Assembly: GCA_034687125.1 (NCBI GenBank)
Contig: JAQGBZ010000028.1
Location: 62,001 to 126,000, forward strand
Origin: Neelides folsomi
Taxonomy: Eukaryota > Arthropoda > Collembola > Neelipleona > Neelidae
Direction of reading: 5' to 3'
DNA length: 64,000 nt
Shown here: one piece after another, positions 29,534 through 51,275 of the stretch
Layout of the letters: every line of letters begins with the position of its first letter
Position numbering within the stretch: position 1 is the stretch's first letter
Notes under the pieces: model-generated
Told to the model about the DNA's origin: nothing
The model's database searches: none
What the model saw: only the letters and a program-made list of their open reading frames with translations
Position numbers and translations under genes: made by a program

Positions 29534-31351
29534 ATGTCGGAAACGACGAGTGTGAGCAGCGGGGAGAAGATTCTGACCTCGTCGACGGTCATGGACGACC
29601 CCGACTTCCCCCACCCCGTCTTCCCGTCCACCTACAGACCTTTCCTCCACGAATTATGCGAAAAGACCAAATTCAGCAAGAACGAGATTCGGTTCCTTTA
29701 CCGCGGGTTCAAGCAGGTAAACTCATTCAACCTTTGACCTCAGACAGGGATTTTCTCTAACTTTCCCGAATTGGGTAAATCGGGGTTGCCAATGTTTCTC
29801 CAATTTGCCTACAATGCGGTTTTGGGATGATTTGGTTGTTTATTGTCGGTCGAAGAAGTGTTATTTCTCCCGTGGGCGTCAGTGGGGCTAAGGACAATTT
29901 CCAAGATCTCGAGAGACCCATTCAATTTCTTGACTCTTTTCAGGAGTGTCCATCGGGGATCGTTCAGGAAGACACCTTCAAGGACATCTACGCCAAATTC
30001 TTCCCTTATGGAAGTGAGATTTCAAAATAATTCAATGAGCCGATGCTAATTCAATCATTTATATCTCTTTTCAGATTCCTCTGTTTACGCTCATTTAGTC
30101 TTTAAGGCCTTTGACATCACAAGCTGCGGAGCTATCACTTTTAAGGTCTCTTTTTTAATTTACATCACTAAGGAATTAATTACATTCTGTACAATTGTCC
30201 TTTTTATATACCATTTATAAAGGTATTACAAATGTGGGGACGTTCATAAAATGGAGCGTGACGTATTTTATGAACTTTCCCTACTTTGTCCTATTTGTCT
30301 ATTAGTTTCCTCTTCAATTTATTTAAGCTATTTTCTCCACAAGGTTGAATGCGCCTCACATATTTCCCCTTCCACTCCGAGAGCCAAAATTAAATCTTAA
30401 AGGTGACTTGTGTGATATAGGAAGTAATCTAGATATATCTATTAGGACATGGTCCTCACTCTCTCCACTTTGCTTCGTGGCTCAAATCGAGAGAAACTCC
30501 GATGGATCTTCTCGCGGCTCTACGATCTCAACGGAAACGGATTCATCACCAAAAGAGAATTCTTCGACTTCATCGCCGCCATCCACGACCTCGTCGGGGT
30601 TTCCAAACAGGTGGGAATGGGAATTTCAAGATGCCTCAAATATTTCCATTTATTTTACAACTCCTTTTTACGACCTATTACAAGCCATTGTGAATTGTAA
30701 AGGATGTTTCAATTCGGCCAATTGTCAATTTCGAGAATGTAGCATTATTTTAATGATTTCGTAATTTTGGCTTTTAGTTAGTAAAAGGTCAAATGTAAAG
30801 TTAGATTGATTTGGGTGGGTTGTGGGAAATTGATTTAAACTAATGAAAATTTTGAATAGACTGAGGATCGGAAAACTCGAGATCACGCTGAACGAATCTT
30901 CTCAAAATTTGATATGAACCGAGATGGAATCGTGACAATCGAAGAATTCCTTGAATCATGTATGAAGGTGAGGTTTGAACTGGGAGTCCCTTTGGGAGAT
31001 CGTGAAATCCCTTCATTATTTTATGTAAACTTCCTCATCAAAATTCATTTTTCTCCTCTTGGGAATTGATTGAATTGATTCTTATCAACCTCCCCTTCAT
31101 TCCTTTTTATCAAACATGGACTGGGAATTTCCCTCTTTCACTTTCTATTTCTTATAATATTTTGACCCAAGAATTTCAATTTCTTATAATATTTTGACCT
31201 TTATATTCACGACCTCTTGATGGGTTTCTTTAAAATAAGAATTCCTACAATGGAAAACGATGAAAAGATTGTTTAACTCAATTATTTGTTAATTCAATTG
31301 CAGGATGAACTCATCTTGAAGTCGCTCCAATATTTCAGTTCAAATCTTTGA
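29534..31351 (+). CDS. KChIP-type Kv channel-interacting protein (neuronal calcium sensor family)
   Basis: KChIPs are cytosolic EF-hand proteins that clamp the N-terminus of Kv4 channels, raise their surface expression and slow inactivation. Six exons (29534-29716, 29944-30013, 30075-30145, 30446-30610, 30860-30967, 31304-31351) give 645 nt and 214 residues. EF1 is degenerate (CPSG, as in the whole family). EF2 ([12 protein letters not shown]) lacks good ligands. EF3 ([12 protein letters not shown]) and EF4 ([12 protein letters not shown]) are canonical 12-residue Ca2+ loops. The core [19 protein letters not shown] and the C-terminal [11 protein letters not shown] match KChIPs rather than frequenin or neurocalcin. 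The N-terminus is MSETTSV, with no Gly2 for myristoylation. The gene lies upstream of the Kv4 gene on the same strand. Confidence 0.9.
30242..30275. repeat. Perfect 11-bp inverted repeat (hairpin) in a KChIP intron
   Basis: GTTCATAAAAT and ATTTTATGAAC flank a 12-nt loop that includes GTGACGT. It lies in the 300-nt intron between the EF2 and EF3 exons. It may be a relic of a transposon end or a structured intron element. Confidence 0.6.
31147..31199 (+). repeat. 21-bp direct repeat in a KChIP intron
   Basis: ATTTCTTATAATATTTTGAC occurs at 31147 and again at 31179, identical for 21 bp and separated by 11 bp. A recent local duplication is the simplest explanation. Confidence 0.7.
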
Positions 31352-49600: not shown

Positions 49601-51275
49601 GGGTTTAAATTGTATAAAATGTTAGAACATAGGAATTATAATATTTTAACTGATTGGATGGGAATCATCGGGTTAATTGTGTGAGTGGGAGCGGGCAATT
49701 AAAATAATGGGATTTGGGGTTGTAATCTTCTCATCCCCCTCTGGCTCCTCATCCTTTCCTTCACATGTTCGGGGGAGTCGGAAAGCTTTCAATGGATTGA
49801 AATCCCACTTGGTGATTTGGGGCTCTATAAATCAATGTAACATTATCGCTCTTTTCAACCTCCTTTCTTGAGCTCCTCCGAAGCTCTCCGAGACGCCCGC
49901 CAGTTCCCAAACTCCCCCATTTGCATAGCTAATGGGAAACAAAGCTGGGGAAAGCTCATTGCACACACCTAATCCCCATGCGTTGCCCGGAAATGAAGAC
50001 CTTTTTCCTCACCCATTCTCATGCTATTCAAAAAGCGTAGAAAAAACACACACATTAAATACAAACACTTTCGCACGTTTTTCCCTTTACTTGATCTCAA
50101 ACACTTTTCATGATAATCCTTTTCTTGAATAGTCAAATCATAAATAGTGAGCAACTCCTTTCACAATCTTCTTTTTTATTACACAGTGAACTGTGTTGTA
50201 GGGAGAGATTTGATTTCTAATAGGATTTTCTACATTTGATAGGATTACATTTTTGAAGTTAAATACTCTTCGGGGTATTTAGATATTTCTGCAATTGAAT
50301 TGCTAGAGTTTTAATAGAGAGGTTTACAATATGTTTGTCGCATGGGAGCCTTTTGTGCATTCCTGCATTTTGAGTTTTCTGGGAATGGATGGAAGGATCT
50401 CTTTATTGTGCCTTCTCTCTCTGACAATAAAGGGTTTACATTGAGGTGGCCTCAAATTCCATTCAAAATGTCATTCACAATGTTCCTTTTATTCCGAGAT
50501 AAAAGAGGTGAATTTTATGATTTGTTTAGCTTGGTACATTGGGTAAATCCATTTCATTCATTGATACACCCACGTTGAAACTGATGGACATTTTTCCTCA
50601 AATACAAATCCCGCGGGAAAGATGGGGAGGGTCATTGGGAACTGAATTAATTAATCATTTGGGGCGAAGAGCCTTCCGTTGTTGGGAGCGAGTCCCGGGC
50701 GCGTTGCTGGCGGGCCCGCAGGCGACTCTTCAGACCCCTCACGTGACCGCGTAGTCTTCGTGTATAGTGACAAGATTGAAGTCAAACAGGTAAAGAGCCG
50801 AAGCGGGTAGCTTAGTGGATGAACGCGGGAATTAGGAGTCTGCACCAACACCCCCGTGGTCGGCATGGCATGACCCGCCGCATGGCTGCATGTCCCTCGA
50901 CCCTCTCCCTCCGAGCGGCGTGCTCGGGCCGTGGGCCTTCCCCGTCTCACTCCTTTGTTTGTTCAGAAGCAGGATCGATCGAGCGCCGAGAGCTGCCCCG
51001 ACGACCCCGACGAACTCAACGACGTTCAAATCCGGCTGAAGGGGTGCGAACGGGGCGGCGGGGGCGCCGCCGGCCCCTCGGCCTCCCTCCTGGCCAAGCC
51101 CAAGGGCGGAGCGGCGCTGTCGTCGCGGGTAAACGCGACCAGCGGGCCGGTCCAGTCGGTCACAACGGCCCTTGTGACCCTTCCCAGTCCTGCCACAGTG
51201 GAACTCGAGTGCAGGACTCCCTCCCCGAACTTGTCTTCGCCCAAGGCGGGGGCCGTGAGAATCTCCAAGTTGTGA
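37674..51275 (+). CDS. Shal: Shal/Kv4 voltage-gated A-type potassium channel
   Basis: Kv4 subunits form tetrameric channels in the plasma membrane that carry the somatodendritic A-type K+ current. Five exons (37674-38788, 47647-47809, 48393-48578, 49053-49208, 50967-51275) give 1929 nt and 642 residues. The N-terminus [20 protein letters not shown] is the conserved peptide that acts in inactivation and binds KChIP. The T1 tetramerisation domain ([10 protein letters not shown] to [17 protein letters not shown]) and S1 ([17 protein letters not shown]) follow. The S4 voltage sensor has [15 protein letters not shown], and the pore has TMTTLGYGDMVP. After S6 ([17 protein letters not shown]) comes [25 protein letters not shown] and a C-terminal VRISKL that fits a class I PDZ ligand. 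Intron 1 splits the pore Gly codon; intron 2 has a GC donor. An extra exon may exist near 50670-50789. Confidence 0.96.
38789..47646 (+). other. Kv4 intron 1 (8.9 kb), no gene seen inside
   Basis: The intron starts GTGAGT and ends TTTTTTCCAG. It interrupts the codon for the first Gly of the selectivity-filter GYG. I find no nested gene and no second pore exon in it. Many open frames on both strands (for instance 39829-40395 minus) have no recognisable domain. Base composition is moderate rather than strongly AT-rich, so regulatory sequence is possible. Confidence 0.7.
47810..48392 (+). other. GC-AG intron in Kv4
   Basis: The exon ends ...CAAAAG and the intron starts GCGAGT. The acceptor is GATTTAG. 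Joining here gives KAQK followed by KARLARIR, matching the conserved Shal sequence exactly. The nearby GTAACA would shift the frame. Confidence 0.8.
49209..50966 (+). other. Kv4 intron 4, with a possible alternative exon
   Basis: Joining exon 4 (ends RYQ) directly to the last exon (begins KQDRSS) keeps the frame. Within the intron, a GC-rich block ends in ...EVKQ at 50789, followed by GTAAAG and a good 177-nt intron to the last exon (TTTGTTCAG). Its frame is open from about 50658 ([20 protein letters not shown] in the middle). The only acceptor-like AG that keeps phase is at 50668-50669, and it is weak. The rest of the intron is ordinary AT-rich sequence. Confidence 0.5.

Follow-up and report, generated by a model that had tools for sequence, protein, structure and literature searches.

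Introduction

Auxiliary subunits of the KChIP family (KChIP1-4) grip the N-terminal peptide of Shal/Kv4 channels (KCND1-3) in a hydrophobic groove and make a second contact on the T1 domain of the channel. In KChIP1 we take L39, Y57 and K61 to be Kv4 contact positions in the KChIP1/Kv4.3 structure; a literature search for a paper confirming these three contact residues found none. Human KCND and KCNIP genes are on separate chromosomes and, to our knowledge, Kv4 and KChIP genes are unlinked in both fly and human. KCNIP genes are described as linked with LBX, TLX, NPM, FGF, BTRC and SLIT genes in one study (PMC2446394), and fly CG5890 is given as a predicted KChIP in another (PMC9270026). In the literature searched, no title or abstract opening dealt with linkage of Kv4 and KChIP genes, and a search pairing two fly gene numbers returned no paper.

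In the window analyzed here (the whole stretch of 64,000 nucleotides, C28:62001-126000, from an assembly of 75.1 Mb in 840 contigs, the single genome examined), a KChIP-family gene lies three genes upstream of a Shal/Kv4 gene on the same strand, with two genes between them. The linkage is real and the two proteins are plausible partners, but the arrangement is most likely a chance neighborhood in which a fast-evolving KChIP happens to lie near an ordinary Shal gene.

Results

The KChIP-family gene (29534-31351) and the Shal/Kv4 gene (37674-51275) are both on the + strand, with 6,322 bp from the KChIP stop codon, ending at 31351, to the Kv4 start codon at 37674; the spliced open frames reproduce exactly every coordinate that the initial annotation had given for the two genes. 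Gene models and Pfam matches also bear out its placement of NOPCHAP1 and APEX2, on the + strand as well, in the interval. NOPCHAP1 (33214-33825; exons 33214-33259, 33337-33557 and 33694-33825; 132 aa) matches PF15370 with 34.3 bits against a cut-off of 27, and APEX2 (34728-36455; five exons) matches both PF03372 (Exo_endo_phos) and PF06839 (GRF zinc finger) above their cut-offs. Three alternative donors at the third exon of APEX2 give proteins of 458, 460 or 470 aa, the first being the model used here. Successive coding regions from KChIP to Kv4 are separated by 1,862, 902 and 1,218 bp, and an arrangement with gaps of 0.9 to 1.9 kb and unrelated genes between is not operon-like.

The Shal/Kv4 gene is a spliced open frame of 642 aa in five exons (37674-38788, 47647-47809, 48393-48578, 49053-49208 and 50967-51275) with Pfam matches to PF11601, PF02214, PF00520 and PF11879. 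The hydrophobic N-terminal peptide previously noted as retained is indeed present, with residues 2-28 (37677-37757, +) covering profile positions 1-27 of 27 in PF11601 at 50 bits against a cut-off of 23. Among sequences in the PDB the channel is closest to Kv4.3 (863 bits) and Kv4.2, both at about 860 bits, vs 313 bits for Kv2.1 and 275 bits for the Kv1.2-Kv2.1 chimera. All of the hallmarks of KCND1-3 are found (N-terminal peptide, T1 domain, six-segment core and DUF3399), and the gene shows no notable difference from that family; one of its introns has a GC donor, which follows the second exon at 47810 (AAAAG|GCGAGT), whereas the other three Kv4 introns have GT donors.

Searching the assembly with the channel gave 27 matches. 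Five of them, with fragment identities of 83 to 100%, correspond to the Kv4 exons themselves on C28; none of the remaining 22 exceeds 61% identity, and thus no second Kv4 was found among these best-scoring candidates. To look for genes within the introns of Kv4 or on its opposite strand, ten open frames, a selection of the longer ones (eight in the first Kv4 intron, one antisense across exon 1 and one downstream of KChIP), were compared with Pfam, and none had a match at E 0.001. The antisense frame (37122-38855, -; 577 aa) lies opposite the G+C-rich first Kv4 exon and is probably a by-product of base composition.

The window KChIP gene is a spliced open frame of 214 aa starting at ATG 29534, in six exons (29534-29716, 29944-30013, 30075-30145, 30446-30610, 30860-30967 and 31304-31351, +) with GT-AG introns throughout. 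KChIP1-4 account for all 12 of its top-scoring PDB sequences (201.7 to 188.6 bits, KChIP1 being first), followed outside the family by hippocalcin (150.7 bits) and frequenin 2 (133.5 bits). Both the PDB scores and the eight-row tree described below place it nearer to the KChIPs than to the rest of the neuronal calcium sensors, and on these two grounds the possibility that it is another neuronal calcium sensor was rejected. An NCBIfam search gave no match, as expected of a prokaryotic library. Identity to KChIP1 is 47.7% (94/197) and to KChIP4 48.4% (93/192). The two canonical Ca2+ loops reported earlier are, on reading the gene model, EF3 and EF4, which are canonical in KChIP1-4 too; EF1 is degenerate in the model, and Pfam EF-hand_1 matches two stretches of the protein.

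Unlike KChIP1-4, the window protein has one residue inserted just before the EF3 loop, encoded in exon 4 (30446-30610, +) and visible in the alignments as WIFSRLYD vs WTFN-LYD in KChIP1, so that the EF3 entering helix is one residue longer than in solved KChIPs, and it further differs by an EF3-EF4 linker two residues shorter and by a long branch in the tree. Equal length of the EF3 entering helix is a trait common to the solved KChIPs rather than a published definition of the family, and the insertion is counted as variation inside it. The alignment shows all three KChIP1 positions that we presume to contact Kv4 (L39, Y57, K61) conserved in the window KChIP, which may therefore well bind Kv4; such binding is plausible from the sequence. 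The initial annotation had held that the channel and the KChIP should work together, and this stands as a plausible proposal in that each protein is a member of the expected family and the N-terminal peptide is intact, with binding itself a prediction.

Searching the assembly with the window KChIP gave 20 matches, of which five are its own, three are on C135, six on C110 and six on other contigs. Splicing of the C135 matches yielded a second KChIP gene (C135:120607-125111, -) encoding at least 203 aa with an incomplete N-terminus; neither this gene nor the EF3 insertion figures in the initial annotation. The C135 protein reaches 239.5 bits with KChIP4 and 234.6 bits with KChIP1, followed by NCS-1 at 174.8 bits. 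Its identity is 52.0% to KChIP1 and 51.8% to KChIP4, only slightly above that of the window protein. Its best score to a solved KChIP thus exceeds that of the window protein (239.5 vs 201.7 bits), as does its score on the 180-residue chain 2i2r_E (223.2 vs 201.4 bits). The two proteins are 47.2% identical (94/199), and two of the three modeled introns of the C135 gene match the window gene in position and phase, but the C135 protein has neither the EF3-helix insertion nor the shortened EF3-EF4 linker. Even with C135 and C28 end to end, the C135 gene would be separated from Kv4 by about 130 kb or more.

In a phylogenetic tree of eight rows, both proteins fall into one clade with the KChIPs (support 99/99), with end branches of 1.1 for the window KChIP vs 0.22 for the C135 KChIP, about five times shorter. 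Within the clade the window KChIP and not the C135 one adjoins the vertebrate pair, with support of 91/90 (not starred); this position is flagged as unsure because of the long branch. With only eight rows, two of them (from C110) assembled by eye from tblastn fragments, and an incomplete N-terminus in the C135 protein, the placing of the latter inside the KChIP clade is not to be relied on. Given the higher scores of the C135 copy, its lack of the insertion and its shorter branch, the KChIP adjoining Kv4 is the faster-evolving one. The main partner of Kv4 is no less likely to be the C135 KChIP than the window one. The C110 contig carries two neuronal calcium sensor genes about 10 kb apart (C110:72500-78500 and C110:86500-90000), the one at 88 kb being closest to neurocalcin delta (313 bits).

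Discussion

We consider that the locus would most probably be an ordinary chance neighborhood in a compact animal genome, where the sole Shal/Kv4 gene that the assembly search returned lies near a fast-evolving KChIP-family member; of the options named in the initial annotation, chance is the better supported. Family knowledge suggests that the window KChIP would be a cytosolic Ca2+-sensing subunit, that its hydrophobic groove would take the Kv4 N-terminal peptide, and that once bound it would alter the traffic and inactivation of the channel. The two genes would be transcribed independently, and their closeness would call for no functional explanation; KChIP-Kv4 binding is independent of gene distance.

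Assuming 10 to 16 genes per window (nine have Pfam support here), the probability that either of two KChIPs would lie no more than three ranks from Kv4 is roughly 6e-4 to 1e-3, or roughly 3e-4 to 5e-4 with both on the same strand, for a pair that was chosen after being seen and not named beforehand. Genome-wide, interactome densities assumed at 0.05 to 0.3% give a rough expectation of about 18 to 170 interacting pairs as close as this one. The pair is therefore improbable if named in advance, yet some close interacting pair somewhere in the genome is not unusual. What counts against a chance neighborhood is the small prior for this specific pair, close to 1 in 1,000; in a sample of one genome, moreover, the linkage may be a conserved one.

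Linkage with a regulatory function, in which a common enhancer or chromatin domain would have Kv4 and the window KChIP expressed in the same cells and in matched amounts, is unlikely. The low prior chance for the named pair favors it, as do the common strand, the distance of 6.3 kb and the membership of both proteins in partner families, but the less diverged and more vertebrate-like KChIP gene is unlinked to Kv4, and two unrelated genes, NOPCHAP1 and APEX2, stand between the pair. Shared promoter sequence was rejected on a blastn comparison of the 5' flanks of KChIP (28250-29533, 1,284 bp) and Kv4 (36456-37673, 1,218 bp), a weak test, in which the flanks gave 14 short matches, the best being 10 bp with E 1.2 and none exceeding 13 bp. 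This was no better than the 17 matches (longest 14 bp) of a reversed-flank control.

Other channel and auxiliary-subunit genes point in the same direction. No DPP-like gene was found on C28, the 14 DPPIV_N matches being on C16, C198, C22 and C556. None of the contigs with Cav alpha1 (C30, C163, C586, C31 and C16) carries Cav beta (C198) or alpha2-delta (C738), and Nav (C8, a weak match of 36.2 bits vs a cut-off of 35.6) is on none of the TipE contigs (C18, C77 and C545), giving 0/3 linked among further channel/auxiliary pairs in a small control in which alpha2-delta (C738) and one TipE piece (C545) come late in the contig list, on contigs perhaps too short to show linkage. The earlier suggestion that linkage might allow shared regulation is thus left unsupported. 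Two further groupings were seen on these contigs: a Kv gene and the weak Nav match, related but non-partner channels, lie about 30 kb apart (C8:515452-516609 and C8:546006-547156), and two TipE-family genes on opposite strands lie within 4.4 kb (C18:1130-5469).

It is similarly doubtful that the two genes are ancestral neighbors kept together by descent without present function. The separation of KCND and KCNIP genes among human chromosomes would speak against such an inheritance. The comparative study of KCNIP neighborhoods (PMC2446394) also contains no word starting with KCND.

We give little credence to the proposal that the window KChIP is a specialized subunit dedicated to Kv4, with its altered EF3, and has stayed beside its channel through common regulation, other partners being left to the C135 KChIP. 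Were it true, the locus would be a rare animal example of linked channel and auxiliary-subunit genes, and would offer a natural way to test whether adjacency helps to balance subunit numbers. Otherwise little is added beyond a well-modeled Shal gene and a pair of KChIP genes in a compact animal genome. The EF3 change in one KChIP of the pair is a small, testable lead of a separate kind.

Finally, an assembly artefact, the join error that had been raised as a way to remove the linkage, was rejected as very unlikely: the assembly is in 840 contigs, but the window contains no N and the 6,322-bp interval has one match in the whole assembly, namely itself (in a search that passes over simple repeats and very common words), which together make a repeat-driven misjoin unlikely, and KChIP, NOPCHAP1, APEX2 and Kv4 are all complete and well spliced.

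Downstream of Kv4 the window also holds an aromatic amino acid lyase gene (52537-54900, -; PF00221), presumably that of histidine ammonia-lyase.
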